Shown here piece by piece: positions 9,218 through 31,823 of a stretch of 64,000 nucleotides of DNA. Made by a program: the position numbers and the translations under genes. Numbering within the stretch: the stretch's first letter is position 1; every line of letters begins with the position of its first letter. The DNA comes from Paraburkholderia sp. BL23I1N1 (GTDB taxonomy: Bacteria > Pseudomonadota > Gammaproteobacteria > Burkholderiales > Burkholderiaceae): assembly GCF_003610295.1 (NCBI RefSeq), contig NZ_RAPV01000004.1, forward strand, positions 201,865 through 265,864, given 5' to 3'. The notes beneath the pieces are model-generated. The model searched no databases. It was not told the origin of the DNA and saw only the letters and a program-made list of their open reading frames with translations.

Positions 9218-9291
9218 GCGGACCGATGAAATGCATTGCTGCGCAGCCGCCTGCTCGATGGGCGGTTGCATTCTGCCAGGCCGGAGGGCGC

Positions 9292-9789: not shown

Positions 9790-9814
9790 GTAATCCAACC
9801 GTGGAGGTCAGGCA

Positions 9815-16197: not shown

Positions 16198-16722
16198 ATG
16201 ACAAATGCGCTCCCACTCACCCTGGCCCGGCGTCAGGCTGCCGCTTCAATCGACTGGCCGGAATGCACAGCCTTGCTGCTCAACCCCGATCCTGCCGTGC
16301 GCAGAAGCCTCAGGCTGCTGGGGATTTTCGCGGGCGTGCTGGCCGTTCTCTGGATGGTCGGCACCGATCCGCGCGGGCCGGTCCAGACGTGGGCGCAGTC
16401 GGTTGAGAACCGCGAGATGAGGCCAGCGATGGAGTCCGCGATGAACGCCGGCAACCGCGTCGCCGGAACCTGGCTGACGACGCACTTCCGGCAGGATTAT
16501 CCGGGACTGCTGCAACAGGAGGCGGACGCAGGCGAGCCGACGGCAATGTTCATCATGGGCCGGATCCTGATGAACAGCGCGCATCCCGGTCGCTTCGTCA
16601 CGCTCGACCGGAACCTGACGGCGTCGCAGGTGAAGGGGAAAGGTCTTGATCTTGTGCGCAAGGCTGCGGCCGCGGGCAATCCGGACGCGCTACTGTTTGT
16701 GGCCCGTCATGATGGAGCATGA
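16198..16722 (+). CDS. Single-pass membrane protein with Sel1-like C-terminal end
   Basis: The protein is 174 residues, starting at an ATG nine bases after AGGAG. One membrane helix lies at about residues 39-58 (LRLLGIFAGVLAVLWMVG). The C-terminal part (LLQQEADAGEPTAMFIMG, then DLVRKAAAAGNPDALLF) resembles paired Sel1-type repeats. The last 109 bases of shared sequence are repeated exactly at 29748-29856, where only the 3' end of this gene survives. The function is unknown; it is one of the tail genes of the transfer operon. Confidence 0.65.
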   Translation: MTNALPLTLARRQAAASIDWPECTALLLNPDPAVRRSLRLLGIFAGVLAVLWMVGTDPRGPVQTWAQSVENREMRPAMESAMNAGNRVAGTWLTTHFRQDYPGLLQQEADAGEPTAMFIMGRILMNSAHPGRFVTLDRNLTASQVKGKGLDLVRKAAAAGNPDALLFVARHDGA

Positions 16723-16912
16723 GGGCCGGACGCAAAACAGTCCGTATGAATTCGTCTATCCGGGCGGCTGGTCGATCACCAACCGGATCATCAACGGCAA
16801 GTCACGCTGGACGCTGTTGTGCGCCGGCGAGCAGTTCGGCGCGTTCAGCAGCGCCGCCGCCGCGATGAACCACCATGCCGCGCTGATGAAGAAACGGGAC
16901 GGCGGCAGCTGA
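16709..16912 (+). CDS. 67-residue P-GGW-family small protein
   Basis: This is a small soluble protein starting inside the end of the previous gene. The core YEFVYPGGWSIT followed by SRWTLLCAGEQFGAF resembles the 98-residue protein encoded after virB11 (8921-9217). A truncated copy lies at 29866-30075. The gene is intact here. Family and function are not recognised. Confidence 0.6.
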   Translation: MMEHEGRTQNSPYEFVYPGGWSITNRIINGKSRWTLLCAGEQFGAFSSAAAAMNHHAALMKKRDGGS

Positions 16913-17056
16913 CGCGGGGCCAGCGGTCGTCCGTCGGCTGGAGTGGACCGATGGAGTCGAACTGGAATATCAGACCGGCGCCGGCAGCACTGAACCGCCC
17001 GATGGTCTGCAAGCGCTGGCCGCAGTACACTGCCCGTCGATGTGGAGGAGAACACG

Positions 17057-17413
17057 ATGAAACTCACTTCCGGAAAACTGCTCGACCTGATGGAGGCGGG
17101 TCGAACCTATCGGGCAAGCGAGCTGGCCGAGTGCTTCGATACGTCGACGGCGCAGGTCAACGACATGCTCTGCACACTGGTCGAGGCCGGTTTCGTGCGC
17201 ATGAACAGTCATTCATCGCGAATCCTCCGCTTTGAGCGGCTGTCGTTCGAACCCGACCCACCGTCGCGTGCCGCTGTAGACACCAATGCGCCGGCGACCG
17301 TGGCCATCCCGCCGGTAACCCGGACGCAGCAAGGTTCCCCGCGCGGCTATGAGGCGTCACTCGCCAGCGTCCGCAGCCTCGCGATGGCCGCGCGCCATTC
17401 GTCGCGAGGCTGA
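17057..17413 (+). CDS. Winged-helix DNA-binding protein (copy A)
   Basis: The protein is 118 residues, starting at an ATG after GGAGGAG. Residues 1-62 form a winged-helix pattern (LTSGKLLDLMEAG, ASELAECFDTSTAQVNDML, LVEAGFVRMNSHSSRILRF). The rest is Pro-rich and disordered, ending with a conserved YEASLASVRSLAM. It is probably a small transcription factor of the element. A paralogue lies at 30072-30440 and a more distant winged-helix protein at 53885-54196. The regulated target is unknown. Confidence 0.72.
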   Translation: MKLTSGKLLDLMEAGRTYRASELAECFDTSTAQVNDMLCTLVEAGFVRMNSHSSRILRFERLSFEPDPPSRAAVDTNAPATVAIPPVTRTQQGSPRGYEASLASVRSLAMAARHSSRG

Positions 17414-17415
17414 CC

Positions 17416-18792
17416 ATGCGCCTCGTCAATCGCGATCATCCCGACAGGATCAGCCGGCAGCTTGATCCGGCAGAAGCCGCAGCAGTTCGCGGCTTCTGCG
17501 GCGCGGGACAGGAAGTCCGGCCGGGCGACGTGGAGCTCGTCGCGGCTGTGCTCGAGGAGATGCACGACGGTCGGCACGTCCGGCTGTGGCTCGAATGCGA
17601 CTGCGGGCATGGTGCAAAGACACAGCCACGGCTGACCGCCCGTGTGCGTGATGAAGGACCGCGTCATTTCGTGCGCATGCACAGATACGGCGAGCATCGC
17701 TGTGCGCTGGCCTCGTTCCGCCAGACTCCGGAACCCGAAGACGGCGAGCCGGACGCTGATCCAGCGTCACCGGGCCAGCACAATCCGCTCAAGCCGGTTG
17801 GCGACGCACTCGACTATCTTGACGATCTGCACGAAGGGATTGCACGCCCGGGTGGCTCCGGCGGCTCAACTGGTGGTCGCGCCGACAACGGGCGACGCCT
17901 GCCGCGCCTGGGGCGCATCTTGCACACGTTGCTGGACGATGCGGGCTTCGCGACCGCGCACGTGGATTCGCTGAAGGAAACAACCCGCTCGTGGGACCGC
18001 CTCGAAGCGTACGCGGCCGATGAGGCGATGAGTCCGGAACTGACGCTGGGGCAGGTGCTGTACTTCAAGCCGTGGACCAGCCTCAATGAAAAAATGGCCA
18101 CCATCGACGCGCTGCCGTGGCCCGACAAAAAGGCGCGCAGCGCGCTGCTGCTGTTCGTTGCAGACGAGATCCACGACGGCGCAGCGATCAAGAAAACGCG
18201 CATGGGCGAATGCCGGGTGCGGCCGGCTAAAGGCATCCGCGGCGGCGGCCGCGACCACGGCCTCACGCAGCCGCCGTACTGGGCGCTCACCGTCGTCGAT
18301 CGCGATCGCGAGGGCATCGCCCGGTTCCGGGAGGCATTCGCGCAGCATGCGTATTCGTTTGCGCGACCGGTGCCGCTGGACAGCCGCTACGAGCGCCGTA
18401 CGCTCGAACAGCTGTTCAGCGTCATGGAGTGGGTCAAGAAACGTGGCGTCGACGTCACGCTCGCCAAGCCGCTGTTCGATCGTGAGGTTCGACAGCTCGA
18501 CGACCCGAGCCTCTGGTGCCGGCCGGACTTCGAGCCGACATTCCGGACGGTTGAAGCGGCGGGCACCGCGCCGCGGCTGCATCGCGTCGTCATCGAGACG
18601 ATGGGCGCAGACGAGCCTGAATATCTGGAGCGCAAGTCGCGCATGCACGAGATCATGAAGCGCCGCGGCATCCTCATCGAACACCGGGTATCGGACGGTG
18701 ACGGCCAGGCTGAACGCGACGACGCGTTCCTTCGTCGTGTCGGTGCGAAGATCCTCCATCTTGCCGGTGTGCAACGGGTAGGGACGCACTGA
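17416..18792 (+). CDS. DUF1173-like plasmid protein (copy A)
   Basis: The protein is 458 residues. The N-terminal part has a Cys-containing segment (WLECDCGHGAKTQPRLTARV, then HFVRMHRYGEHRCAL). A middle helical domain (RLGRILHTLLDDAGFA, LTLGQVLYFKPW) is followed by a C-terminal domain (EYLERKSRMHEIMKRRGIL). The layout fits DUF1173, a family found beside conjugation genes on proteobacterial plasmids. Its C-terminus recalls nuclease-fold proteins, but I cannot identify catalytic residues. The paralogue at 30453-31823 is about three-quarters identical by eye. Confidence 0.62.
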   Translation: MRLVNRDHPDRISRQLDPAEAAAVRGFCGAGQEVRPGDVELVAAVLEEMHDGRHVRLWLECDCGHGAKTQPRLTARVRDEGPRHFVRMHRYGEHRCALASFRQTPEPEDGEPDADPASPGQHNPLKPVGDALDYLDDLHEGIARPGGSGGSTGGRADNGRRLPRLGRILHTLLDDAGFATAHVDSLKETTRSWDRLEAYAADEAMSPELTLGQVLYFKPWTSLNEKMATIDALPWPDKKARSALLLFVADEIHDGAAIKKTRMGECRVRPAKGIRGGGRDHGLTQPPYWALTVVDRDREGIARFREAFAQHAYSFARPVPLDSRYERRTLEQLFSVMEWVKKRGVDVTLAKPLFDREVRQLDDPSLWCRPDFEPTFRTVEAAGTAPRLHRVVIETMGADEPEYLERKSRMHEIMKRRGILIEHRVSDGDGQAERDDAFLRRVGAKILHLAGVQRVGTH

Positions 18793-18835
18793 TGCCTCAA
18801 GCCAGAGACAAGGTGTCCGGATGAAGGCGTATATA

Positions 18836-18904
18836 TGGGGTTTGAGGTGCAGTGGAACAGTCACCGTTTTTTTGCGTAACCGTTCCACTGCGCCTCAAAC
18901 CCCA
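18836..18904. repeat. 69-bp near-perfect palindrome at left edge of cargo
   Basis: The arms 18836-18861 and 18879-18904 match at 24 of 26 positions (TGGGGTTTGAGG then GCAGTGGAAC), with a 17-base T-rich spacer. It lies 44 bp after the DUF1173-like gene and before the AT-rich leader of the cargo. The arm sequence resembles the terminal repeat of Tn3 (GGGGTCTGACGC then CAGTGGAACG), but no transposase is present. It may be two transposon ends placed head to head, a MITE, or a regulatory hairpin. Confidence 0.6.
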
Positions 18905-18971
18905 AAACGCTGAACGATGACTATGAAATCAGGCGTCAGTAGCACACGACTGGCGCTCGATGCACGAAAAA

Positions 18972-19003
18972 GAAAGCCACCTGTGACGGTGGCCTTTTCT
19001 TTG
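18972..19003 (+). terminator. Rho-independent terminator
   Basis: The stem GCCACC/GGTGGC (18976-18981 and 18988-18993) is flanked by AAA on the left and CTTTTCTTT on the right, the usual terminator pattern for + strand transcripts. It would stop read-through from the conjugation operon into the cargo. A second perfect 9-bp hairpin follows immediately. Confidence 0.7.
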
Positions 19004-19031
19004 GGCGAGTGCCTTAGTTATTCACTCGCCC
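19003..19031. other. Perfect 9-bp hairpin directly after the terminator
   Basis: GGGCGAGTG (19003-19011) pairs with CACTCGCCC (19023-19031) across an 11-base loop. It abuts the terminator on its left. There is no following U-run, so it may be an insulating structure or protein-binding site. From here to 19351 the DNA is AT-rich with no convincing gene. Confidence 0.5.
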
Positions 19032-19218
19032 TGCTGCGACGTAAATAATTCGCCAATTAAAACTTCGCAACGAATTTCCTAGAATTACGAGTCGAAATGC
19101 CCCGTAATAAATGGTAATAATTCAAGACGCATACTCAGAAAAATTTAACACCCGGTTTCGTTTACACAAGGCAGAATCCAGAAAATCGCATCTTAAGCGG
19201 CATGCGCATTGGATTTCC

Positions 19219-19293
19219 TTCGATAAGCTTTCCGTATTATAACAGAAAGTAATCGGGAGGGTAAAACCCAAATATGCGGAAAAGCTTATCGAA
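19219..19293. promoter_or_regulatory. Spaced inverted repeat upstream of the cargo operon
   Basis: TTCGATAAGCTTTCCG (19219-19234) is repeated in inverted form as CGGAAAAGCTTATCGAA (19277-19293), one base longer, with a 42-base AT-rich spacer. It lies 60-130 bp before the first start codon of the cargo operon, inside the only AT-rich leader of the region. This is the right place for an operator or a DNA-bending promoter site. I see no convincing sigma-70 pair, and the function is inferred from position. Confidence 0.5.
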
Positions 19294-19351
19294 TTCGCGC
19301 GCCGGTAGCATCGTGGCGGAGACAGTGAAGTAATCAAACGATACTAAATCC

Positions 19352-22198
19352 ATGAACGACTTCAGCCAGAACAGACAGAGCTTGCTGCGTGACCTGATTG
19401 AATCGAAATGCGTATTCCGCGCGCCTAAACATCGGCTTGTATCATCAAGCGGAAAATCCCTGTCATGGCTGATTGATTTACGACCGATCCTGCTTTCATC
19501 GGAAGGGCTCGATACGCTTGCTGAGTTATTCTGGACGCGCTACGCGGACCAACTGCCGTTTCAGGTAGGCGGCATGGAAATGGCCGCTGTACCGCTTGTG
19601 GCCGCGATTCTCATGAATGCCGCGCGAAAGGGATATAACGTCACTGGCTTTATCATTCACAAAGAGCGCAAGCGCTATGGCCGGATGAATGCCATTGAAG
19701 GTGACGTTTCGGATGCGCCGGTTCTGCTTGTGGATGATATTTTCAATAGCGGCACGAGTCTTGAGCAATCGAGAGTCGTGCTCGAAGAAATTAGCCGCAC
19801 CATCTGGAAAGTCTGGAGCGTGATCGATTACGGTTCCCGCACCGGAACCGAATGGCAGAAGCGACACGGCGTTACGGTCGAATCTGCTTACGCCCTTGAG
19901 GATTTCGGACTCAAGCTGTCGGTTCCTAAAAGCCACGCAGCACAGCTTTCATTCGTCACGCGCTGGGTCGCTAAAACAGAGTCCGCGAATCATCATTATG
20001 TCGTGCCGAAGTCGGCACCGCGTGCGCAAAACGGCTTTATTTATTTCGGCACGGATGCCGGGGAAATGCGCTGCGTTGATGGGGCGAGCGGTCAAACGCG
20101 TTGGAGCTTCAAAATCGAAGCAGGGCGCTCGAAAGGAATCTGGTCCACGCCTTACGTCACGCATGATCGGGTTTTCTTCGGCGGCTATGACGGCAATCTG
20201 TACGCCCTGTGTGCAGAGAATGGGCGAGAAATATGGCGATACGTTGAGCCTGACTGGATCGGATCATCACCGGCCTACGCGGCTGATTTGGGCCTCGTGT
20301 TCATCGGCGTTGAATATGCCAGTCCGACACGAGCTGGCGGCGTAACGGCCATCGATGCAAAGTCCGGTCAGAAGGTTTGGGAATATCCGACCCGTTGCTA
20401 TGTCCACGGCTCCCCGCTCTATGTCGCAGATATTGCGGCAGTGCTGTGCGGCACCAATGACGGCGCATTAGTGGCGCTCGATGCGCATACCGGCGCGGTT
20501 CGATGGCAATTCCAGACGAACGGCGCAATCAAGCATGCGCCTGCGCTAGACCTTGAGCGCCGACAGGTCGTGTTTGGTTCCTTCGATGGCGGTATTCGTG
20601 GCGTGAGTCTCGATACCGGCGAACTGAGATTCTGCATCCAGACGGGAAATGCGGTCTACACCACGCCGCTGATTGACGGCGCTCGCGCCTGGTGTGGATC
20701 GACGGACAAATATCTGTATGTGATTGACCTCGCGACCGGCGAAGGCATTGCGAAAATCGGCGCGCACTCGAAGATATTTTCGTCGCCTGCTCGTATCGGG
20801 CCCTGGGTATGGTTCGGCAGCACGAACGGGCGTGTTCGCGCAATCGACCCGGCAACCTTTGCGCTGGCCGGGGTGTTTCAACTGCCGGATGCCGTCACAA
20901 GCGCCGTCGAATACGATTCGGTTAATCGCATGCTCATAGTCGTTAGTATAGCAAACCGCCTGTATGGAATATCAGTGATGCCACCGGTCCTGCGGGAACA
21001 ATCAGAAGATGGTCAGTCGCAGATTGACGTGACGGCGCTGCAACTTGCTCGCCTCACCGTCGATGCGGTGATAAATCACACGCCTTTGCCTGATCCTGAA
21101 CGATATCGTCTGACCGGCGCGTATCCGCATGGTGGCGTCTTTGTCAGCCTGCGAAACCAGACGACCTTGCAACGGATCGGACGTGGCGGCCAGTGGACAT
21201 TTGATGCAGCCGGTTCGTCGCCGGAAATGTCGGTCATCGTCGCAACGACAAAAGCCTGTGCAAATCTGTCTATCGATTCACTGCGTGAGACGATTGTCAG
21301 CGTCAGCCTGTTTGGTCCGCTTGAGCAAACCACGCTCGAAGAACTGAACCATGAAAAATTCGGGATCGTTGTACGGGCCACGGCGGGCGCGAAGCTCGGC
21401 GGCGCACTGCCGAATTCGCCGGAATATAGCAACGAGCAGGGCCAATATCTTCATGCGCTGCGCAATGCGAAGTTCACGCAGTGGGAAGGGCACACGCTTT
21501 ACCGGCACACGGTTGAACGGCAGGCGGAAGACCTGTCCTGGCCCGTCTACGGCGCTCCTTTTCCATATGACGAGGCTGATTTGACGCGCTTCGTGGCGTG
21601 GCTGCTGAGCCCGGGGGGACGGGCCGAATCGCAGGATTTCTATTCGGGACTCGCAGACCGTCTTTCGGCGCTCGCCGTTACGCGGTACGTCGATGCGCTT
21701 GTCGCAGGCTCCAATGACGCTCGCCGTCAAGCCGTCGATGCAAAAGTCACGACGATTCTTTTACCGGTTGCCGGAATGCAGAACGCGGACGTGAGTGACC
21801 TGAAGGAATCGGTAGCCAGTCAGCGTACCGGCGCAGAACGCGTTCTGTTGTCGCTGATATTCAAAGGCCGCAGCGTAGGTGAGCGCACGCGCCTTCGCGG
21901 GCATTTTCGGATGGATCGCGATGCACTGATCTGCCGGAACGATGCCGAATCACAGGTATTTCTGCCTGCACTGAACATGCAACGTGGGATGGACGCAGAA
22001 ACGTTGATCGCAACGTTGCCGGATTTTCCGGCTGCGACGTGGGAAATTGCGCCTTGCTGGACGTGGGCGGTCGAGGGTGAAGCAAATCCGCTTCTAGTGC
22101 GAGGCATGACGGACGCAATTCTGAGCGCGGATTCAAGAATCAATGGCAGTGCGGGTGCCATTGTGGATGTATCTCACAACCCGCTTTTTCAGGAGTAG
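19352..22198 (+). CDS. Fusion protein: phosphoribosyltransferase-like, PQQ-type beta-propeller and AMMECR1-like domains
   Basis: The protein is 948 residues without signal peptide or membrane helix. Residues about 1-195 look like an orotate-type phosphoribosyltransferase, with the PRPP-binding motif VLLVDDIFNSGTS at 124-136. Residues about 225-545 form a PQQ/Trp-docking beta-propeller with repeats such as YFGTDAGEMRCVDGASGQT and FGSTNGRVRAIDPAT. Residues about 588-725 match AMMECR1 (GGVFVSLRN, SVSLFGPLEQ, FGIVVRA, HTLYRHTVER). The last 220 residues are unrecognised. The gene opens an export operon, five bases before a double-glycine peptide gene. I infer a role in peptide modification or regulation; no such fusion is known to me. 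Confidence 0.8.
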   Translation: MNDFSQNRQSLLRDLIESKCVFRAPKHRLVSSSGKSLSWLIDLRPILLSSEGLDTLAELFWTRYADQLPFQVGGMEMAAVPLVAAILMNAARKGYNVTGFIIHKERKRYGRMNAIEGDVSDAPVLLVDDIFNSGTSLEQSRVVLEEISRTIWKVWSVIDYGSRTGTEWQKRHGVTVESAYALEDFGLKLSVPKSHAAQLSFVTRWVAKTESANHHYVVPKSAPRAQNGFIYFGTDAGEMRCVDGASGQTRWSFKIEAGRSKGIWSTPYVTHDRVFFGGYDGNLYALCAENGREIWRYVEPDWIGSSPAYAADLGLVFIGVEYASPTRAGGVTAIDAKSGQKVWEYPTRCYVHGSPLYVADIAAVLCGTNDGALVALDAHTGAVRWQFQTNGAIKHAPALDLERRQVVFGSFDGGIRGVSLDTGELRFCIQTGNAVYTTPLIDGARAWCGSTDKYLYVIDLATGEGIAKIGAHSKIFSSPARIGPWVWFGSTNGRVRAIDPATFALAGVFQLPDAVTSAVEYDSVNRMLIVVSIANRLYGISVMPPVLREQSEDGQSQIDVTALQLARLTVDAVINHTPLPDPERYRLTGAYPHGGVFVSLRNQTTLQRIGRGGQWTFDAAGSSPEMSVIVATTKACANLSIDSLRETIVSVSLFGPLEQTTLEELNHEKFGIVVRATAGAKLGGALPNSPEYSNEQGQYLHALRNAKFTQWEGHTLYRHTVERQAEDLSWPVYGAPFPYDEADLTRFVAWLLSPGGRAESQDFYSGLADRLSALAVTRYVDALVAGSNDARRQAVDAKVTTILLPVAGMQNADVSDLKESVASQRTGAERVLLSLIFKGRSVGERTRLRGHFRMDRDALICRNDAESQVFLPALNMQRGMDAETLIATLPDFPAATWEIAPCWTWAVEGEANPLLVRGMTDAILSADSRINGSAGAIVDVSHNPLFQE

Positions 22199-22203
22199 TT
22201 CAG

Positions 22204-22677
22204 ATGCAAACGATTGATGATCTGGATTTGCTGCGGTACGTAGCCGGCGGTGACGGTGACGGCGGTGGGGACGGAGATGGTGATGGCGACGGCGGCGGTT
22301 ACGGCGATGGCGATGGGGACGGCGATGGTGACGGTGATGGCGATTCTGGCGAAGCGTCAGCTACGTGCACTGCCGCAACCGCATTGGCAGACGGAGGCTA
22401 CCAGAGCGCCGACAATGCTGCGGTCGGTGCATCCGAAGGCCAGGTTGCCGCTTTGGCAGACGCCATCGGTAAGGGAATTGGCATCGATGGGGACCTAGGT
22501 AATGCCGAAATGGCGGGTTATGAAGCTGCGCAACAAGGTCTGTCTTTGGGGCAAGCCGAAAGCGCAAACCTTAGTTCATTCCAAAGCCACACGCTTGGTT
22601 TCGTGGCCGGGTATGTCGCAGGCGCTGTCGCGCGTGGGGTGGGATATGGCGGCGGTGGTGGTGGTCACAACCACTAA
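22204..22677 (+). CDS. Putative secreted peptide with double-glycine leader and Gly-Asp repeat
   Basis: The protein is 157 residues with a good ribosome-binding site (AGGAG). The N-terminus MQTIDDLDLLRYVAGG fits a double-glycine leader, cleaved after Gly16 by C39 peptidases. The predicted product (141 residues) starts with a run of about 15 Gly-Asp units. A single Cys in ATCTAATALADGG, an Ala/Gly-rich helical core (FVAGYVAGAVARGVG) and a Gly6-His-Asn-His C-terminus follow. The matching C39 transporter is encoded in the same operon. Length and Gly-rich core recall class II microcins such as colicin V. Activity cannot be judged from sequence. Confidence 0.78.
   Translation: MQTIDDLDLLRYVAGGDGDGGGDGDGDGDGGGYGDGDGDGDGDGDGDSGEASATCTAATALADGGYQSADNAAVGASEGQVAALADAIGKGIGIDGDLGNAEMAGYEAAQQGLSLGQAESANLSSFQSHTLGFVAGYVAGAVARGVGYGGGGGGHNH
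22246..22347 (+). repeat. In-frame hexanucleotide repeat encoding Gly-Asp units
   Basis: The DNA is built of degenerate GGNGAY units, interrupted by GGY and TAC codons. Units are six bases, so slippage would change repeat number without changing frame. It encodes the acidic Gly-Asp tract just after the predicted leader cleavage site. It was considered as a calcium-binding tract, but it does not follow the nine-residue RTX spacing. Confidence 0.8.
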
Positions 22678-22830
22678 GAAATATCCCTGACGTGCAGGCT
22701 TTGAATTCTCGATAAATCGAATTTGTTGCCTGATCGATGAACGATAGTGGATGCCTGGTCCCGCGACTGGACGCCGTTTTCGTCATCGTTGCCGCATAAA
22801 ACAAACGTTGTTTCAGTCGAACTGTGTTCA

Positions 22831-23799
22831 ATGAAACCAGAAAAAGATTTCCCGCATGCCTTCATCGATCTTGCAAAGTTGGGCCGAACCGACTGGCAGG
22901 CGATAGCGTTGACTATTCTGATTCTTGCTTGCGTCATCGCCGTGAGCACACTCGGCGCTTTGTTGTTGCCCATTCCGGGAATGCCCGCATATCGGTCACT
23001 GTATTTCGAACATTTTAGTATCCTTGCGGCCTTTAATTCTTTGCTTCTTGACGCGGGAAGTCCGGTCGGCGTTTTCGGATTCTGGCTCGCATGCAAATTT
23101 GCTCTGCGACGCCCGTTCCGTTCCCTGATTTCAATCGATTTGAAGTTCCGTGTCCGGCGCTTTTTGCTCGGCGCGGCACTGTACCAGCTTGCCTTCATGG
23201 TCGGTGTCGCGGCCATGTGGCTGTATGCTGGACTGCGCTTCGATATATGGACATCTCCGATTGGGCATTTCCAGCTTCCGAAGACTGATCCGAATGTAAA
23301 CCCGATTCTGAAAGTGTCACTTGCACTAATTACGCTGCTCGGCATCGCCTTTCTCGCATTCGGAGAAGAACTGTATATGCGTGGCTGGATGACGCAGACC
23401 ATTGGGCAATATATTCGCATCCCGGTCGTAGTCGTGGTATTAGTGGCCGTTTTGTTCGCCATGTTTCACACGCAGTATAAATGGCCGGTGAAGATTGAAA
23501 TGTTCTTTTGTGCGCTTGGGTTTTCCGCCTTGAGTCTGCGGGATCGACGGCTTGAGCTTGCGGTCGGGGCGCACTCAATGATGAACATTTGGGTGACGCT
23601 GACACCGATGTTTTTCACGGGCTCACATTCCAATACGCATATCTTGATCCCGGATGCAATTGTTTTCGCGTTGATAAAAGGTGCGCTGCCCTTCGCGCTG
23701 ATGTACTGGTTCCTGCAAAAGACGAAAGGATGGTTCGCGCCGGTTGGCGAAAGTCTACCGCATATCGAAAATGCTGTTTCAGCAGAGCATTGCTCATGA
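22831..23799 (+). CDS. CPBP-family intramembrane protease (copy 1)
   Basis: The protein is 322 residues with multiple hydrophobic helices. The three CPBP (CAAX protease and bacteriocin-processing) motifs are present: EE and R in FGEELYMRGW, His in FAMFHTQYKW, and HSMMN near the end. The chosen ATG gives MKPEKDFPHAFIDLAKLGR, aligning with the start of the neighbouring paralogue; a GTG 84 bases upstream is possible. CPBP proteins next to bacteriocin genes often give self-immunity or take part in maturation. The stop overlaps the second copy (ATGA). Confidence 0.82.
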   Translation: MKPEKDFPHAFIDLAKLGRTDWQAIALTILILACVIAVSTLGALLLPIPGMPAYRSLYFEHFSILAAFNSLLLDAGSPVGVFGFWLACKFALRRPFRSLISIDLKFRVRRFLLGAALYQLAFMVGVAAMWLYAGLRFDIWTSPIGHFQLPKTDPNVNPILKVSLALITLLGIAFLAFGEELYMRGWMTQTIGQYIRIPVVVVVLVAVLFAMFHTQYKWPVKIEMFFCALGFSALSLRDRRLELAVGAHSMMNIWVTLTPMFFTGSHSNTHILIPDAIVFALIKGALPFALMYWFLQKTKGWFAPVGESLPHIENAVSAEHCS

Positions 23800-24725
23800 A
23801 AATAAAATCCTATTCCTTCATCGATCTAGCCAAGTTAGGGCGAACCGACTGGCGCGCTGCTGTTTTGACCGTCTTTATCATCGCACTCCTGAGCATAATT
23901 TGTAATTGGAGCGTCCTGCTGCTCACGGGCGGCTCCCTTTACTTCAGAAATTACCATATCGCGGATGTAGTCAAGACTATCGTGCACGCTGCAACGGACC
24001 CGGTTATCTCTGTTTTCGGATTCTGGATCGCGTGCAGAAAGGTTCTGCGACGCCGGTTCCGCTCGCTGATTTCTGCTGATCTGACGTTCAGATTTCGGCG
24101 CTGTCTGCTTGGTGCTGCGTTGTACCTGCCCGTCAATGTGATCGGATATTTAACTATGGCGCTTTACTCATCGGCGCGATACGGCGCATGGATGTTTCCG
24201 TTCGGTCACTTCGAAGGAATTCACGGCGAACAGATTGTCAAACTAATAGGTGCGTTGATCAGTTTTCCGTTCCTCGCGTTCGCAGAGGAAGTGTATTTCC
24301 GGGGATGGCTGACGCAGACCATTGGGCAATATATACGCATGCCGTTTGTCGTCGTGGCAGTCGTGGCCGTGGCGTTCGCGGCCTACCATACGCAATACAA
24401 CCTGCAACTGAAAATGGTGATGTTGTTTTCCTCACTCGGCTTTTCTGCACTGAGCTTGCGCGATCAGCGTCTTGAGCTTGCGGTCGGTGCGCACACGATG
24501 ATGAACATATGTGCGGCGTTGCAGATACTGTTCTTAACGGGTCCGCTATCTCATATGCAGACTTCCGCAACGGTAACGACGTTCGACTGGTTTGCACTCG
24601 CCGTCATCAAAGGTGCGTTGCCCCTCGCGCTGATGTACTGGTTTCTCCAAAAAACAGGCGGATGGTTCGCGCCGACTGATACGCGCACGGCGAGCACTAT
24701 TGCTGTTCAACCCGAACGCCTGTGA
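23796..24725 (+). CDS. CPBP-family intramembrane protease (copy 2)
   Basis: The protein is 309 residues and paralogous to the preceding one along its length (YSFIDLAKLGRTDWR at the start; MYWFLQKTGGWFAP at the end). The catalytic motifs are intact: FAEEVYFRGW, FAAYHTQYN and HTMMN. It is coupled to copy 1 by ATGA and to the adaptor gene by a GTGA overlap. The pair may act as a heteromer, or one may be protease and the other immunity factor; the sequence does not decide. Confidence 0.82.
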   Translation: MKIKSYSFIDLAKLGRTDWRAAVLTVFIIALLSIICNWSVLLLTGGSLYFRNYHIADVVKTIVHAATDPVISVFGFWIACRKVLRRRFRSLISADLTFRFRRCLLGAALYLPVNVIGYLTMALYSSARYGAWMFPFGHFEGIHGEQIVKLIGALISFPFLAFAEEVYFRGWLTQTIGQYIRMPFVVVAVVAVAFAAYHTQYNLQLKMVMLFSSLGFSALSLRDQRLELAVGAHTMMNICAALQILFLTGPLSHMQTSATVTTFDWFALAVIKGALPLALMYWFLQKTGGWFAPTDTRTASTIAVQPERL

Positions 24726-26089
24726 AGTTCATGACGCGAAACCTGGGGGCGCGCCCAATGAGCGATATCACAACCACTCCCAACGCCGAAGGGACTGAAG
24801 AAGCGGAACAGCCGCGCCAGAAAAGTAAGCGCGCGTTGCTGTTCCGTCCGGCTGCGCTCGAATATCGTCAGCATCAGTGGCTTGGTGAGGTCGTGCTGAC
24901 CGGTTCCATGCGGCACCTCACGTCTAGCCTCGTGTTTTTTGGAATCGCGGTCGGCATCGTCCTGTTTCTGATTTTCGCTGACTACACGCGGAAAGAGGAA
25001 GTAGAGGGTCGAGTCATGATTGACAACGGCGCAGCGGAGATTTTCGCGCCCACGGTCGGCACCGTGGTCCGTGTGCTCGTCAGCGAGGGCGAAGCCGTCA
25101 AAGTCGGTCAGCCGCTGCTCGCGGTATCAACTGAACGAACAAGCGCAGCGGGAAATTCGAGGCAGCAGATAAGCGCGGAATTAAACGCCAGGCGATCCAG
25201 TCTCGAAAGCGACTCCCGGCACATAGAAAGCATTTTCGAACAGAACATAGCGATGCTCAAAGCGAAATCCATCGAACTGAGCGCAGGGGTGCAGCATCTG
25301 GATACGGAAATTATCACGCTAGAGGCGCGGTGCAGGTTGGCCGAAATCGACAGTGCCCGTTTCGCACAACTGCGGCATGACGATGTTGTATCGCAGTCTG
25401 AATACGAACAGCACGAGCAGACGATGCTGACCGGTCGCGCGCAACTCGAAGATCTGCGTAGGCAACGCACGGCGGCTCAGGCGGAACTGGCGCAAGTGAA
25501 GGCCGATCTTCGGAACGCGCCGTTGGACGAACATAATCAACTCGGAACCATTCAGCGGCAGATGCTCCAGGTTGACGGCGAACTTGCTGACAACGAATCG
25601 AACAGGGAAATCACCATCCCGGCGCAGATCGCGGGAACGGTAACGGCGCTGCTCGCCCGTCCTGGTCAGTCCGTGAATGGGTCAACGCCCTTGATGTCGC
25701 TTTTGCCGCAAGGTGGACGCCTTGACGTGAAGCTGTTTGCCCCTAGCAAAGCGGTTGGATTTGTCAAAGTCGGCGCGCCGGTTGAGTTGCGATACGAGGC
25801 ATTTCCTTATCAGAAATTCGGTACATACGCGGGCAAGGTTACGCAGATCGCGCGCACTGCGTTGAGTCCGGCACAGCTACAGGCAGCGACGGAAACCGAT
25901 GATCCTAACCGGTCTGAAAATCTTTATCAGATTACCGTTGCGCTCGATTCGCAGACCATCAATGCCTATGGTGAGGCGGTCCCGTTGCAGGACGGCATGC
26001 GCGTCGATGCAGACGTGGTGCTCGATACGCGCAAGCTGTATGAGTGGGTTCTGGAACCGCTCTACACGCTGACCCGGCGATCACCGTGA
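24722..26089 (+). CDS. HlyD/CvaA-type membrane fusion protein
   Basis: The protein is about 455 residues. After a soluble N-terminus, the segment ALEYRQHQWLGEVVL and one transmembrane helix (SSLVFFGIAVGIVLFLIFAD) match microcin-type adaptors. It continues with a biotinyl-lipoyl-like half (IFAPTVGTVVRVLVSEGE), a coiled coil of about 150 residues, the second lipoyl half (IAGTVTALLARPGQSV) and a beta barrel. The GTG at 24722 overlaps the CPBP stop; ATGs at 24731 or 24758 are alternatives. It should link the C39 transporter to the outer-membrane channel. Confidence 0.9.
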   Translation: MKFMTRNLGARPMSDITTTPNAEGTEEAEQPRQKSKRALLFRPAALEYRQHQWLGEVVLTGSMRHLTSSLVFFGIAVGIVLFLIFADYTRKEEVEGRVMIDNGAAEIFAPTVGTVVRVLVSEGEAVKVGQPLLAVSTERTSAAGNSRQQISAELNARRSSLESDSRHIESIFEQNIAMLKAKSIELSAGVQHLDTEIITLEARCRLAEIDSARFAQLRHDDVVSQSEYEQHEQTMLTGRAQLEDLRRQRTAAQAELAQVKADLRNAPLDEHNQLGTIQRQMLQVDGELADNESNREITIPAQIAGTVTALLARPGQSVNGSTPLMSLLPQGGRLDVKLFAPSKAVGFVKVGAPVELRYEAFPYQKFGTYAGKVTQIARTALSPAQLQAATETDDPNRSENLYQITVALDSQTINAYGEAVPLQDGMRVDADVVLDTRKLYEWVLEPLYTLTRRSP

Positions 26090-26146
26090 TTCGGAATCAC
26101 GTCAGTAGCACAGTCAACGTTTTCCCTTTTCTTTCCTGAGTCAACC

Positions 26147-28240
26147 ATGCCACGCGAACTTCAGTTCGGCTTTCGCCGCAGCATTGACGTGCACTTGCAA
26201 ACCGAAGCAACCGAATGCGGCCTGGCTTGCATGAGCATGATTGCAACGTTTCATGGATTCGATACGGACCTGGCAACGTTGCGGCGACGCTTTTCCCCTT
26301 CTCTGAAAGGGCTGACGCTGGTCGACCTGATTCGAATCGGCGCGACACTTGACCTTGCAGGGCGCGCAGTTCGGCTCGAACCTGAAGAACTACATTTGCT
26401 GCGGTTGCCGTGCATCCTGCATTGGGATTTCCGGCATTTTGTTGTCCTGGAGCGCGTTGGCCGCGAGCACGTGCTGTTGGTCGATCCGGCACTAGGTGCG
26501 CGGCGCATGTCGCTCAAAGAACTGTCGCTGCATTTCAGCGGCATGGCGCTTGAACTGGTTCCGACACCGGCGTTTCAGCCGCGTCGGGAACGGCAGGAAA
26601 TCAACCTACGTAGCATGATGGGGCGCGCGACCGGTGTAGGACGCGGCTTGCTGAAAATCTTTCTGCTCGCGCTCGCACTCGAAGTGTTCAGCATCGTCGC
26701 GCCGTTCTATCCCGAATGGGTAACAGACCAGGCGATTACAACCGGGGATCGGCATTTGCTTGCCGTTCTGGCGCTCGGCTTCGGCCTGGTAATGGTGATC
26801 CACGTTGCGACCGAAGCAATGCGCGCGTGGGCCGTCACTACGTTCAGCACGCTCGTGAATGTTCAGTGGCTAGCCAACGTGTTTCGCCATCTGCTGAATC
26901 TGCCGCTTGATTACTTCGGCAAGCGGCACATTGGGGACATCGTTTCACGGTTCGACAGTGTGAACACGATCCAGCAGGCGCTCACGGTCGGCTTTGTGGA
27001 GTCGGTGCTCGATGGGCTCATGTCCATCGGCACTATCACAATCATGGTCGTCTACAACGCCCGATTGTCGCTTGTCAGCGTCGTCGCGGTCGTGCTCTAT
27101 GCGATCTTGCGTGCCTGCATTTATGGCGCACTCAGGATGTCAAATCAGAAGCAGATCGTTTTTGCGGCTCGTGGCAAAAGCCTGCTGATGGAATCGGTTC
27201 GAGGCATCCAGAGCGTGCGGCTATTCGGCAAGGCTGAGGACCGGCTTGCGCGCTGGCTGAACATCGTTGTGAGTGAAAAGAACGCTGATTTGCGAACGCG
27301 TAGGCTCCAGTTGATAGCCGGGACAAGCAACCGTTTTATTTTCGGACTCGAAGCAATCCTGGTGACATATTTCGGCGCGGTAGCGGTCATTGAGCGTTCA
27401 CTGTCACTCGGCATGTTGTTCGCATTTCTGTCTTATCGAGGTCAGTTCACTGCGCGTTTCACGGCGCTGATCGACAAGATTTACGAGCTACGAATTTTGA
27501 GGCTGCACGCGGCGCGCCTGGCTGACATCGTACTCACCACGCGGGAGCCGGAAGAAATAATGCGAGCGCCGGACAAGGATGAATTCGTGCCGACGCTTGA
27601 GGTTCGGAACCTGTCGTATGGTTACTCAAAGAACGGTCCCCGCATCGTGGATGATTTCGATTTGCGTGTCGAAGAAGGGGAAGCGGTTGCAATCGTTGGT
27701 CCTTCGGGGTGCGGAAAAACGACGCTGCTGAAGCTGCTTGCGGGCTTACTCGCGCCACATGGGGGCGAGGTCATCGCGGGCGGCATGCCGATTCGACAAA
27801 TGGGCCTGGCAAATTATCGCTCGTTGGTTGGCGTCGTCATGCAGGAGGATCGGCTGTTTGCCGGGTCGATTGCGGAAAATATCAGTTTCTTCGATACGAC
27901 GCCTGATTTTGCGTGGATCAGCGAGTGCGCAGAAATGGCGTCTGTGCATGCGGACATTCGCGCGATGCCGATGGGCTATTACACCTATATCGGGGATATG
28001 GGGTCCGCGCTATCCGCAGGGCAGCGACAGCGGGTCATGCTGGCACGCGCGCTTTACCGGCGACCGAAACTGTTGCTGCTCGATGAGGCGACAAGCCATC
28101 TGGACGTGAATAACGAGCGTGCCGTCAACGCGGCAATGCGCAAGCTGAATATCACCCGAATCATTGTGGCGCATCGTCCTGAAACCATCGCATCGGCTGA
28201 TCGCGTAATCGACCTCGCACGCGTGAAGGATGCCGCGTGA
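26147..28240 (+). CDS. C39-peptidase ABC exporter (CvaB/LagD type)
   Basis: The protein is 697 residues. The N-terminal C39 peptidase domain has Gln18, catalytic Cys24 (QTEATECGLAC), His97 (RHFVVLE) and Asp113 (VDPALG), so it should be active. A six-helix transmembrane domain follows. The ATPase domain has Walker A GPSGCGKTT, signature LSAGQRQRV, Walker B LLLLDEATSHLD and a final His in VAHRPE. Such proteins cut double-glycine leaders and export the peptide. The gene at 22204-22677 is the obvious substrate. The stop overlaps the TolC-like gene (GTGA). Confidence 0.93.
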   Translation: MPRELQFGFRRSIDVHLQTEATECGLACMSMIATFHGFDTDLATLRRRFSPSLKGLTLVDLIRIGATLDLAGRAVRLEPEELHLLRLPCILHWDFRHFVVLERVGREHVLLVDPALGARRMSLKELSLHFSGMALELVPTPAFQPRRERQEINLRSMMGRATGVGRGLLKIFLLALALEVFSIVAPFYPEWVTDQAITTGDRHLLAVLALGFGLVMVIHVATEAMRAWAVTTFSTLVNVQWLANVFRHLLNLPLDYFGKRHIGDIVSRFDSVNTIQQALTVGFVESVLDGLMSIGTITIMVVYNARLSLVSVVAVVLYAILRACIYGALRMSNQKQIVFAARGKSLLMESVRGIQSVRLFGKAEDRLARWLNIVVSEKNADLRTRRLQLIAGTSNRFIFGLEAILVTYFGAVAVIERSLSLGMLFAFLSYRGQFTARFTALIDKIYELRILRLHAARLADIVLTTREPEEIMRAPDKDEFVPTLEVRNLSYGYSKNGPRIVDDFDLRVEEGEAVAIVGPSGCGKTTLLKLLAGLLAPHGGEVIAGGMPIRQMGLANYRSLVGVVMQEDRLFAGSIAENISFFDTTPDFAWISECAEMASVHADIRAMPMGYYTYIGDMGSALSAGQRQRVMLARALYRRPKLLLLDEATSHLDVNNERAVNAAMRKLNITRIIVAHRPETIASADRVIDLARVKDAA

Positions 28241-29712
28241 AAAGAATTATCTGGTTGCGCCCAGTTGCATGCCGTCTTGCCCTCACAATGGCTTGCATCG
28301 CGCTCGTGGGCGTGCTGCTCGTCATTCCTGTGACTCATGCGCAAATCGATCCATTTTCGACACGTGCGGGTCTTGAAGATGTGTCGCCCGATTTAAACTG
28401 GATGGCTCGCGATACTGACGCCTGCAATGTCACAAGTCTGCACAATCCCGTTTCGATTTATGAGGCGGTCAGCCGTGCTTTGTGCAGCGATCCTACCGCG
28501 CGAGAAAGTTGGGCCAATATGCTGTTGAATTCGGCTCAGGTCGGTGTTGCGGAATCGGCATGGTTGCCGACACTCGATGCAAGCGGAACCCGTTCGCGTA
28601 CAGTTCAGACGCAAACCGTATCAGGTCCGACATTTCCCGATGCAATAGGGCGCACCTCAGATCGTTACGCCGAACTTCGGCTGTCATGGGTCCTGTTCGA
28701 CTTCGGGCAACGTGATGCCAATCTGGCGTACTACAAGGGGCTGCTAGACCTTTCCAAAGCTGCACACACGGAGACACTGCAATCCGTGTTCGGACAGGCT
28801 GCGGGGGCCTTCTATGCGGTCTGGACGGCAGAAAGCACGCTCGATGCAGCCGACGATGCCGAAAAGAATGCCGAACGGAGTTACCAGATAGCGCGACATC
28901 GGCATCTGGCAGGCGCAGGCACGCTCAATGATGAGCTACAGGCGAAAGCGGCATGGCAAGAGGCCATTTATGCGCGCGTTAATGCAGCAGGCACGTTCAA
29001 GACGGCGCAGGGCAACTTATGCGTGCGGATGGGAATTCCGGTTGAAACGGATATCCGGGTCGACGTCGATGCAGGCGTTCAGCCGGACGTGAAATTCACG
29101 TCCTCAGTTGCCGATCTGCTCGCGCTCGCGCAGGCCGCTAATCCGAAGCTGCGCGAGGCACACGCACAGATCGATGCCGACGAGGCAAACGCCAAACTTG
29201 CGCTCAGACGGGAATTGCCGACAATCTCCCTGTCCGGCACGCTCAGCAACGATAAGGCGCTTGGTGCATTTCCACGCGACACGCGTACCGGCAGCAGGTA
29301 TATCGGAATTCAGATCAGCATTCCGATATTTGCGGGGTTTGGCGATGAGTACCATCGGCAGGCATCGGATGCGCAGGTCGATATTGACCGGGCGAGTCTG
29401 CACAAAGCGGAACTGGACGTTGCCGCGTCGGTGTGGCGAAGCTATCAGGATGTCGTAACGAAAACCGCCAATCTGGAGGTTGCTGCTGCGACCCAGGAAA
29501 GCGCGCAGGAAGCATACGATGTTGCGAGCAAACGTTATGGTGCGGGCGTTGGCGCGTTGCTCGATGTGTTGAACGCTCAGACTACGCTTGCGACTGCGCA
29601 ACGTCAGGTGATCCAGTCACAAGCCGATTGGCGCGTTGCGCGCCTAGTGCTTGCTTTTGCAATCGGCACGCTCGATGGTCAGCGTTGGAATACGCACGCT
29701 GAAGCTCCATGA
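28237..29712 (+). CDS. TolC-family outer-membrane channel of the cargo exporter
   Basis: The protein is 491 residues starting at a GTG that overlaps the transporter stop. A signal peptide (LVGVLLVIPVTHAQ) is followed by two OEP repeats of long amphipathic helices and short strands (AELRLSWVLFDFGQRDANL and later YIGIQISIPIFAGFGD). These are features of TolC/TprF-like type I secretion channels. It completes a dedicated type I exporter. The stop codon lies within a transposon-end-like motif that marks the right edge of the cargo. Confidence 0.9.
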   Translation: MKRIIWLRPVACRLALTMACIALVGVLLVIPVTHAQIDPFSTRAGLEDVSPDLNWMARDTDACNVTSLHNPVSIYEAVSRALCSDPTARESWANMLLNSAQVGVAESAWLPTLDASGTRSRTVQTQTVSGPTFPDAIGRTSDRYAELRLSWVLFDFGQRDANLAYYKGLLDLSKAAHTETLQSVFGQAAGAFYAVWTAESTLDAADDAEKNAERSYQIARHRHLAGAGTLNDELQAKAAWQEAIYARVNAAGTFKTAQGNLCVRMGIPVETDIRVDVDAGVQPDVKFTSSVADLLALAQAANPKLREAHAQIDADEANAKLALRRELPTISLSGTLSNDKALGAFPRDTRTGSRYIGIQISIPIFAGFGDEYHRQASDAQVDIDRASLHKAELDVAASVWRSYQDVVTKTANLEVAAATQESAQEAYDVASKRYGAGVGALLDVLNAQTTLATAQRQVIQSQADWRVARLVLAFAIGTLDGQRWNTHAEAP

Positions 29713-29738: not shown

Positions 29739-29879
29739 CATCCTGACCGCTTCGTCACGCTCGACCGGAACCTGACGGCGTCGCAGGTGAAGGGGAAAGG
29801 TCTTGATCTTGTGCGCAAGGCTGCGGCCGCGGGCAATCCGGACGCGCTACTGTTTGCAGCCCGTCATGACGGAGCGTAA
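29739..29879 (+). pseudogene. 3' remnant of the 174-residue membrane protein gene
   Basis: The frame encodes only the last 46 residues of the protein at 16198-16722, ending in LLFAARHDGA and a TAA stop. The 5' three-quarters, including the membrane helix and start, are missing. The break lies at the right edge of the cargo, two bases after the transposon-end-like motif, so the cargo junction probably removed the rest. Confidence 0.8.
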
Positions 29880-30075
29880 AGGCTGGACACAAAACAGTCC
29901 GTATGAATTCATCTATCCGGGCGGCTGGTCGGTCACCAACGGGATCATCAACGGCAAGTCACGCTGGACGCTGTTATGCGCCGGCGAGCAGTTCGGTGCT
30001 GCAGCACTGAACGGGCTGATGGTCGGCAAGCGCGGCGCAGTACACTGCCCGGCGATGCGGAGAAGAACACGATGA
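29866..30075 (+). CDS. Truncated copy of the P-GGW small protein
   Basis: The first 47 residues match the protein at 16709-16912 (YEFIYPGGWSVT, SRWTLLCAGEQFGA). An internal deletion of about 130 bp relative to the left copy then joins the frame to formerly intergenic DNA, giving the unrelated tail AALNGLMVGKRG. The stop now overlaps the start of the winged-helix gene. It is an open but altered gene and may be nonfunctional. Confidence 0.5.
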   Translation: MTERKGWTQNSPYEFIYPGGWSVTNGIINGKSRWTLLCAGEQFGAAALNGLMVGKRGAVHCPAMRRRTR

Positions 30076-30440
30076 AACTCACTTCCGGAAAACTGCTCAG
30101 GCTCATGAAGCCAGGGCGCGCCTATCAGGCGGCCGAGCTGGCCAGGCACTTTGACACGTCGACGGCACACGTCAACGACATGCTGTGCACGCTGGTTGAA
30201 GACGGCCTTGTCCGGATGAACAGTCATTCATCGCGCATCATCCGCTTCGAGCGGCTTTCTTTCCGGCCAGAACCACCATCGCGGCCCACTGTCGGAACCG
30301 GGGTATCGACGAGTGCGTCGAGCCCGACGAGCGTCGCGACACATCCGGTGACCCGCCAGCTGCACGGCTCGCTGTGCGGCTACGAGGCGTCGCTCGCCAG
30401 CGTGCGCAGTCTTGCGATGCTCACGCGTCATGCACACTGA
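30072..30440 (+). CDS. Winged-helix DNA-binding protein (copy B)
   Basis: The protein is 122 residues and close to 17057-17413 in the first 70 residues (ARHFDTSTAHVNDMLCTLVE, RMNSHSSRIIRFERLS). It differs in the Ser/Thr-rich linker and again carries YEASLASVRSLAM near the end. The start is an ATG in an ATGA overlap with the truncated upstream gene. It probably has the same kind of DNA-binding role as copy A, perhaps with a different operator. Confidence 0.7.
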   Translation: MKLTSGKLLRLMKPGRAYQAAELARHFDTSTAHVNDMLCTLVEDGLVRMNSHSSRIIRFERLSFRPEPPSRPTVGTGVSTSASSPTSVATHPVTRQLHGSLCGYEASLASVRSLAMLTRHAH

Positions 30441-30452
30441 GGACAGACACCC

Positions 30453-31823
30453 ATGCGCCTGATTGACCGGGATCACCCTGACAGGGTCAAGCGACCGCTC
30501 AGCGCTGAAGAGACCGCCGCGGTGCGCAGGTTCTGCGGCGCCGGGCAGGACGTCCAGCCCGCAGACGTTGAGCGCGTGCTGGCCATACTAGAAGAGATGC
30601 ACGACGGGCGGCACGTCCGGCAATGGCTCGAGTGCGACTGCTGGCCGGGAGCCGCTACGCAACCGCGGTTGACGGCCCGGGTCCGCGAAGAGGGGCCGCG
30701 TCATTTTGTGCGCATGCATCGATACGGCGAGCATCGCTGCGCGCTGGCTTCCTTCCGCCAGCAGCCGGAGCCGGCGGACGAGCCGGACGATGACACTGCG
30801 CCGCCCGGTCGGCACAATCCGCTCAAGCCAGTCGGCGACGCGCTTGACTACCTTGATGACGGGCACGAGGGCGCGGCGCGTCCGGGAGGCTCGGGCGGTT
30901 CGGCCAGTGGGACCGGCGAAACGGGGCGGCGCCTGCCGCGCCTGGGTCGCATCATGCATACGTTGCTGGACGATGCCGGCTTTGCCACCGTCCACGTCGA
31001 CGCGCTGAAGGAGACGACGAATTCGTGGGAACGCCTGAGGGCGTATGCAGACGCGGAAGCGATGAGTCCGGAACTGACCCTGGGGCAGGTGCTTTATACG
31101 GAACCGTGGACCAGCGTCAACGAGAAAATGGGCGCCATCGATGCGCTGCCATGGCCGGAGAAGAAAGCGCGCAGCGCGCTCCTGCTGTTTGTGGCCGACG
31201 AGATCCGCGACGGTGCCGCCATCAAGCGCACGCGCCTGGGCGAACGCATCGTACGTCCGGAGAAAGGCACCCGGGCCGGCGGGCGGGACCAGCGGCTCAC
31301 GCTGCCACCGTACTGGGTGCTGGCCGTCGTCGATCGCGACCGGGAGGGCAACGCGCGATACCGCGAAGCATTCGCGCAGCACGCGTACTCGTTCCGGCAG
31401 CCAGTGCCGCTGGAAAGCCGGTACGAGCGCGTCACGCTCGAATGCCTGCTCCGGGTGATGGAGTGGGTCAGGACGCGCGGCGTCGAGGTGACGCTTGGCA
31501 AACCGCTGTTCGATCGCGAGGTGCGGCAGCCCGACGGTCCGAGCCTGTGGTGCCGGCCGGACTTCGAGCTCACGTTCCGGACGGCGGCATCCGCCGGTAC
31601 AGCGTCGCGGCTGCATCGCATTGTCGTCGAAACGATGGGCGCGGATGAACCCGGATACCTGGAGCGCAAGTCGCGCACACACGGAATCATGAAGCAGCGC
31701 GGCATCCTGCTCGAACACGTGGTGGCCGACGACACGGAACAGCGCGAACGCGATGATGCGTTCTTCCGGCGGGTCGGTGCGAAAATCCTGCATCTTGCCG
31801 GTGTCCGGCGATCAACCGGGTAA
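30453..31823 (+). CDS. DUF1173-like plasmid protein (copy B)
   Basis: The protein is 456 residues and collinear with 17416-18792, with the same Cys-containing N-terminus (WLECDCWPGAATQPRL), the RLGRIMHTLLDDAGFA helix region and the YLERKSRTHGIMKQRG C-terminal block. Differences are spread along the whole length, so this is a long-diverged paralogue, not a recent duplicate. Both copies keep full length, which suggests both are or were functional. Confidence 0.62.
   Translation: MRLIDRDHPDRVKRPLSAEETAAVRRFCGAGQDVQPADVERVLAILEEMHDGRHVRQWLECDCWPGAATQPRLTARVREEGPRHFVRMHRYGEHRCALASFRQQPEPADEPDDDTAPPGRHNPLKPVGDALDYLDDGHEGAARPGGSGGSASGTGETGRRLPRLGRIMHTLLDDAGFATVHVDALKETTNSWERLRAYADAEAMSPELTLGQVLYTEPWTSVNEKMGAIDALPWPEKKARSALLLFVADEIRDGAAIKRTRLGERIVRPEKGTRAGGRDQRLTLPPYWVLAVVDRDREGNARYREAFAQHAYSFRQPVPLESRYERVTLECLLRVMEWVRTRGVEVTLGKPLFDREVRQPDGPSLWCRPDFELTFRTAASAGTASRLHRIVVETMGADEPGYLERKSRTHGIMKQRGILLEHVVADDTEQRERDDAFFRRVGAKILHLAGVRRSTG

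Follow-up and report, generated by a model that had tools for sequence, protein, structure and literature searches.

AMMECR1 domains are conserved from archaea to humans, and to our knowledge no biochemical function has been agreed upon for them. Here, we describe an operon in which a protein with an AMMECR1-like domain is encoded next to a peptide with a double-glycine leader and a complete type I exporter. The closest described counterparts of such an operon are the class II microcins which, in the sections of ref. PMC10233263 available to us, are characterised by a signal of 15–18 amino acids (aa) ending in GG or GA, a C39 ABC transporter, a membrane fusion protein (MFP) and an outer-membrane factor (OMF) such as TolC, together with a peptide of ~5–10 kDa and an adjacent small immunity protein of 51–216 aa. 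The operon is located at positions 19352–29712 of a 64,000-nucleotide stretch of Paraburkholderia sp. BL23I1N1 (hereafter the window). It comprises seven genes encoding a three-part phosphoribosyltransferase (PRTase)-propeller-AMMECR1 fusion protein, the double-glycine peptide, two CPBP membrane proteins, an HlyD-type adaptor, a C39-ABC exporter and a TolC-family channel, and this gene set, proposed in an initial annotation of the DNA, was confirmed in the window sequence. It is quite plausible that the operon makes a secreted Gly-Asp peptide, and that the fusion modifies this peptide with phosphoribosyl pyrophosphate (PRPP) before the C39 domain removes the leader and the peptide is exported.

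The fusion is encoded by the first gene of the operon, separated in the window by 5 bp from the peptide gene. Its N-terminal domain resembles orotate phosphoribosyltransferase (OPRTase) and retains an intact PRPP loop (DDIFNSGTS) as well as an intact catalytic loop (HKERKRYG). The domain matches PyrE (TIGR00336, 5.6e-17; structure 2p1z, 1.8e-11), scoring under the TIGR00336 equivalog cut-off (62.1 vs 106.8 bits), and its sequence similarity and the presence of the PRPP-loop and catalytic-loop residues assign it, at the sequence level, to the OPRTase-like PRTase superfamily. The propeller, which is likely eight-bladed, is the best-confidence part of the structure model and resembles BamB, scoring below the BamB TIGR03300 equivalog cut-off (96.2 vs 285.2 bits). 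In the predicted model, an AMMECR1-like fold was found for residues ~562–725, and among the relatives of the fusion the AMMECR1 Pfam score is above cut-off in P0021 (34.7 bits), with no AMMECR1 row at E 0.01 in P0005. In a PADLOC scan of the fusion, the peptide, CPBP1 and the exporter, no anti-phage model matched the first three, and the exporter matched the mad3, mad8 and AriA models.

The peptide core (residues 17–157) has a mass of 12.96 kDa, with an unmodified monoisotopic mass of 12,952.6 Da, and is acidic (isoelectric point 4.05). When GTDB species genomes were scanned with a pattern, three further copies of the cassette were identified, in P. solitsugae (L007), B. seminalis (L008) and B. 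puraquae (L009). The leader of 16 aa, ending in GG, is identical in all four cassette genomes, and the peptide beyond the leader varies among them. In each of the four genomes read, the fusion adjoins the exporter, which supports the initial proposal of an operon for peptide export whose unusual fusion could act as a modifier of the peptide; homologues of the fusion are thus found near exporters, as that proposal demanded. The CPBP pair, by contrast, was taken to be a feature of the system but is not needed, since the number of CPBP genes varies between cassettes: a pair is encoded in the window and in P. solitsugae, a single gene in each of the B. seminalis and B. puraquae cassettes. DNA similarity among the cassettes begins ~40–200 bp 5' of the fusion gene (19155–19310) and ends at the end of the TolC gene, and these limits are consistent with a block moving as a unit. 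The cassette is also rare, as the fusion used as a query matched 3 of 299 genomes of the family sample, while a profile of the PRTase-propeller core matched 2 of 144 genomes in the window's own genus and 2 of 65 in the genus of G032 (Burkholderia, matching L009). These counts include the window's own or the centre genome.

Beyond the cassette, the fusion had 318 protein matches, and the following statements concern the best 120 of these. The first 21 relatives include fusions of ~920–950 aa and ~1240 aa, and those of the long fusions (~1160–1260 aa; P0005, P0007–P0012 and P0014–P0021) that were aligned carry an extra helical C-terminus without counterpart in the window protein. Most other relatives consist of the PRTase-propeller core of ~550 aa, either alone or with an N-terminal extension. 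Judged by motif position, 79 of the 120 proteins have such an extension, and a hydroxylase-like motif is present in 68; all four extended proteins that were scanned (P0022, L010, L011 and L014) contain the Asp/Asn beta-hydroxylase domain PF05118 above cut-off. Of the 120 proteins, among them that of the window, 115 retain the catalytic-loop motif and 114 the PRPP-loop motif, a degree of conservation expected for an enzyme. The core itself forms a rare, scattered family, found in 3/385 genomes in the class of a Bradyrhizobium genome, 2/347 in the phylum of an Acidobacteriaceae genome, 2/195 in the Bradyrhizobium genus sample, 1/141 in the family of G303, 1/140 in the family of G302 and 8/142 in one alphaproteobacterial order (that of G309), the centre genome being included in each count outside Burkholderiaceae. 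A full PRTase-propeller gene with 33% identity is also present on two near-identical viral-collection contigs (L038 and L039).

The most recurrent feature outside Burkholderiaceae is the occurrence of the PRTase-propeller core near a Gly-Asp tract, which the initial annotation had missed. A tract was defined as at least 24 Gly plus Asp per 40 residues, with at least 6 Asp and at least 8 Gly, in any open reading frame (ORF) of at least 40 aa on either strand. Tracts lie within ~10 kb at 11 of the 22 loci that have a full PRTase-propeller match and a neighbourhood that was read (6.7–22.9 kb long, some ended by contig ends), namely the window, L007, L008, L009, L010, L011, L014 (in two ORFs), L016, L018, L032 and L034. 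Duplicate loci were counted once (L036 as L013, L035 as L017, L037 as L015, and the near-identical contig L039 as L038). For comparison, 54 control stretches totalling 0.92 Mb were taken from 12 genomes of the set examined here; they were positioned manually, either at evenly spread positions or at the start of a contig, and 11 are shorter than 15 kb. Only one of them contains a tract (0/40 plus 1/14), an RTX array scoring 26 of 40. With a stricter threshold of at least 28 of 40, the counts were 10/22 loci vs 0/54 controls, and when the operon was counted once they were 8/19 loci vs 1/54 controls (Fisher p 4e-5). The tie between core and tract spans Burkholderiaceae, Alphaproteobacteria and Acidobacteriota. 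No tract was found at L013, L015 (22 of 40, RTX repeats), L017 or L110 (22) to L114. The stretches L105–L109, chosen mostly by pattern matches (L108 was not), are in neither count; their best scores of 40 were 37 (L105), 25 (L106), 22 (L109), 19 (L107) and 0 (L108).

The proteins carrying the tract are diverse. They include two M10 matrixin proteins (L014), an RTX protein with DUF4214 (L034), proteins of 2379 aa (L016) and 2940 aa (L018) encoded beside type I secretion genes, a TIG-domain protein with a C-terminal tract (L011), small Cys-rich proteins (L010 and L032) and the operon peptide. As these proteins share nothing else visible, the tract itself is likely the common partner of PRTase-propeller genes. 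Moreover, type I secretion alone does not account for the tie, since none of the neighbours in the stretches read at L010, L011 and L032 resembles the HlyD, ABC or TolC protein of the window. A whole-genome search with a GDGGDG codon pattern pointed in a similar direction, as it found some or all matches 1–7 kb from the PRTase gene in 6 of 15 genomes (6/8, 6/6, 1/5, 1/4, 1/5 and 1/3 of the matches in each, the last being P. solitsugae as judged by place and size) and none near that gene in the other 9, including those of the window, B. seminalis and B. puraquae; the reversed pattern had 0 to 3 matches per genome, three of them in the window's genome. In two alphaproteobacterial genomes (G305 and G307), tract proteins (L105:9711-11506 and L106:27-1073) are encoded on contigs other than that of the PRTase-propeller gene. 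Some of these tracts precede a DPLxxDLDGDG-type stretch, of which looser versions are seen in L018 and L034. At L012, a metagenome-assembled genome of Caulobacterales, the core has as its direct neighbour a gene (9261-9833, minus strand) for a short protein, whose leader, MRVLRLEELAHVSGG, is microcin-like and precedes DGD.

Several of the partners of the core belong to oxygenase or modifying-enzyme families. PF05118 is fused N-terminally to the PRTase-propeller at L010, L011 and L014 (5.7e-15 to 1.6e-17), and all three of these loci have a Gly-Asp tract. At L016, an AMMECR1-helical protein (AMMECR1, 1.2e-12) is encoded by a separate gene adjoining the PRTase-propeller gene, and its helical end matches that of the long fusions (E 5e-9 when this protein alone was searched); judged by sequence, this gene pair is a split form of the ~1240-aa fusions. 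An FGE-like gene adjoins the core at L018 (5e-61) and a PhyH gene at L013 (1.1e-10), where no tract is found in cis. Further partners are DUF6065 at L032, a sulfotransferase at L014 and a TPR protein at L034, and the domain scan of L033 took an ORF in a different frame rather than the PRTase gene. A RimK-like ATP-grasp gene (PF08443, 2e-52) adjoins the PRTase-propeller gene at L110:3692-4672. The initial annotation had also asked whether the fusion co-occurs with C39 exporters and CPBP genes. This holds for the exporter in all four cassettes, but at the loci read outside Burkholderiaceae no CPBP relatives were seen and exporter genes occur at some loci only (L016 and L018, with a TolC-type gene at L014).

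We favour a mechanism in which the fusion would modify the Gly-Asp tract of the peptide in the cytoplasm in a PRPP-dependent manner, with the propeller holding the acidic tract. The likeliest chemistry would be phospho-ribosylation of Asp, or of a group first installed by a partner domain. The C39 domain would then cleave the precursor behind Gly16, the route out of the cell would be completed by HlyD and TolC, and the CPBP proteins may protect the producer (immunity) or trim a partner. More tentatively, the PRTase-propellers may be protein-modifying enzymes of a new class, which would recognise Gly-Asp tracts and add a PRPP-derived (ribosyl-type) group prior to secretion, with interchangeable partners (Asp/Asn hydroxylase, AMMECR1 and FGE-like) setting the chemistry, and the operon would then be the peptide version of this class. 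If true, this would give AMMECR1 domains a biochemical role. The occurrence of relatives of the fusion near Gly-Asp-rich proteins in distantly related bacteria points to a kind of protein modification that has probably not been described so far; a literature search covering titles and abstract openings in one paper library found no description of the operon or of this type of fusion.

Several observations weigh against PRPP-dependent modification of the tract. The chemistry has been inferred rather than observed, the AMMECR1 Pfam score of the window fusion (23.9 bits) is just under the gathering cut-off of 25, and the LRGC-type motif of AMMECR1 domains reads RGGQW in this protein. The tract threshold was fixed after the first loci had been seen, and in the window, B. 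seminalis and B. puraquae genomes the GDGGDG pattern does not detect the tract of the operon itself, which is of GDGD type. In addition, the tract is absent at L012 (20/40), L033 (16/40) and the viral-collection contig L038, and none of eight loci in one order of Alphaproteobacteria (that of G309) has a tract in cis; G305 and G307, of these eight genomes, carry one elsewhere and G309 has no GDGGDG match, the search having covered these three. Finally, bacteria lacking the PRTase-propeller family may also often carry Gly-Asp tracts.

Other explanations of the locus were also considered. The product could be a metal-binding or matrix/adhesion peptide rather than a bacteriocin, its modification tuning the metal binding of the tract, a possible reading that is compatible with the modification proposed above. 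The acidic core ending in GHNH would suit such a peptide, as would the tracts found elsewhere in RTX, matrixin and Ig-like proteins, whereas the small size of the peptide, its microcin-type leader and the potential role of the CPBPs as immunity or processing genes argue against it. A role of the fusion as a chaperone or adaptor in secretion is rather unlikely; in this reading, the propeller would hold the acidic, disordered tract and hand it unmodified to the exporter, and PRPP binding would only gate this step. BamB is a scaffold, and the propeller both resembles it and is the highest-confidence part of the model; several tract proteins also adjoin type I secretion genes. Yet the catalytic loops are retained in nearly all listed relatives, the partners are modifying-enzyme families, and exporter-like neighbours are missing at L010, L011 and L032. 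Similarly unlikely is an ordinary class II microcin locus with an antibacterial peptide and CPBP immunity, where the fusion would be a PRPP-sensing regulator or an unrelated passenger. The leader length, the GG site and the set of peptidase-containing ABC transporter (PCAT), MFP and OMF fit the class II microcins as presented in the available part of PMC10233263, and some CPBP proteins may take part in antimicrobial-peptide processing, as stated in the available part of PMC9200625 (citing Pei 2011). However, the fusion leads the cassette in four genomes and in the window lies 5 bp from the peptide gene, its distant relatives accompany Gly-Asp tracts and not microcins, and the core exceeds the range of peptide sizes. 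Finally, it is improbable that the Gly-Asp link is secondary to PRTase-propeller genes sitting near type I secretion genes, as they do at L016, L018 and in Burkholderiaceae, with substrates rich in Gly and Asp anyway, because L010, L011 and L032 have tracts in the absence of such neighbours in the stretch read, and RTX repeats score 20–26 of 40 compared with 29–37 for the tracts (24 at L032).

The features of the operon are listed in Table 1. The start of CPBP1 was set at ATG 22831 by homology with L007 and L009, the listed ORF beginning at GTG 22747, and for HlyD the start is GTG 24722, with ATG 24758 as a possible alternative. CPBP2 is a paralogue of CPBP1 (72% DNA identity across 407 bp). 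Promoter-like matches in the upstream intergenic region were no commoner than in shuffled sequence. The operon is flanked by two diverged copies of one block (window 16582-18770 and 29739-31804; 93% over 269 bp and 77% over 1810 bp), each encoding a protein of ~457 aa without convincing Pfam match. Two more C39 peptidase genes are present in the same genome (L001 and L003; own genome, C1).

Table 1 Features of the operon in the window.
Feature	Position	Strand	Details
Upstream intergenic region	18793..19351	+	Presumed location of the promoter
Fusion, 948 aa	19352..22198	+	OPRTase-like PRTase aa ~10-190; PQQ/BamB-like propeller ~200-545; AMMECR1 ~562-725; C-terminal a/b domain ~740-907
Peptide precursor, 157 aa	22204..22677	+	Leader MQTIDDLDLLRYVAGG 1-16; Gly-Asp tract 17-48 (13 Asp); Ala/Gly-rich C-terminal part ending GHNH
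CPBP (Rce1-like) membrane protein 1, 322 aa	22831..23799	+	PF02517 1e-11; EELYMR, FAMFH, HSMMN
CPBP (Rce1-like) membrane protein 2, 309 aa	23796..24725	+	PF02517 8e-12; EEVYFR, FAAYH, HTMMN
HlyD-type periplasmic adaptor	24722..26089	+	PF13437 above cut-off; TIGR01843 below its cut-off
C39 peptidase / ABC exporter	26147..28240	+	PF03412, PF00664 and PF00005 above cut-offs
TolC-family outer-membrane channel	28237..29712	+	PF02321 8e-55

The individual components can be compared with known protein families. The PRTase domain of the fusion is like PyrE in sequence and in its PRPP and catalytic loops, but differs from it by scoring below the equivalog cut-off and by being fused to a propeller and an AMMECR1 domain. 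The latter is unlike AMMECR1 and the AmmeMemoRadiSam protein A in its Pfam score just under cut-off and its altered motif, and no Memo or radical SAM gene is found among the seven operon genes. The Asp/Asn beta-hydroxylase domain PF05118, which is fused in the relatives described above, is absent from the window operon. Both CPBP proteins resemble CPBP/Abi membrane proteases, as they carry the EExxxR, FxxxH and HxxxN motifs and score with PF02517, and no NCBIfam CPBP equivalog reaches its cut-off for either of them.

The locus provides a compact setting in which an AMMECR1 domain, fused or encoded nearby, can be studied with its likely substrate, and the tie of the core to Gly-Asp tracts in unrelated proteins offers a concrete, testable substrate. 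It combines microcin-like export with a candidate modifying enzyme of a type that we did not find described. Measured against the class II microcins, as far as these are covered by the available sections of the review cited above, the class II microcin logic assumed in the initial annotation applies to the leader and the exporter set and does not extend to the core of 13 kDa or to the gene adjacent to the peptide. The operon starts with a gene for a 948-aa PRTase-propeller-AMMECR1 protein and contains CPBP genes, and instead of a small immunity gene the neighbours are CPBPs of 322 and 309 aa. As two features, peptide size and the small immunity gene, do not fit, the operon was not filed as a class II microcin. 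Nevertheless, the exporter logic is alike, since, as in microcins of the microcin V type, a 16-aa leader ending in GG is combined with a C39 ABC transporter, a membrane fusion protein and a TolC-type channel.

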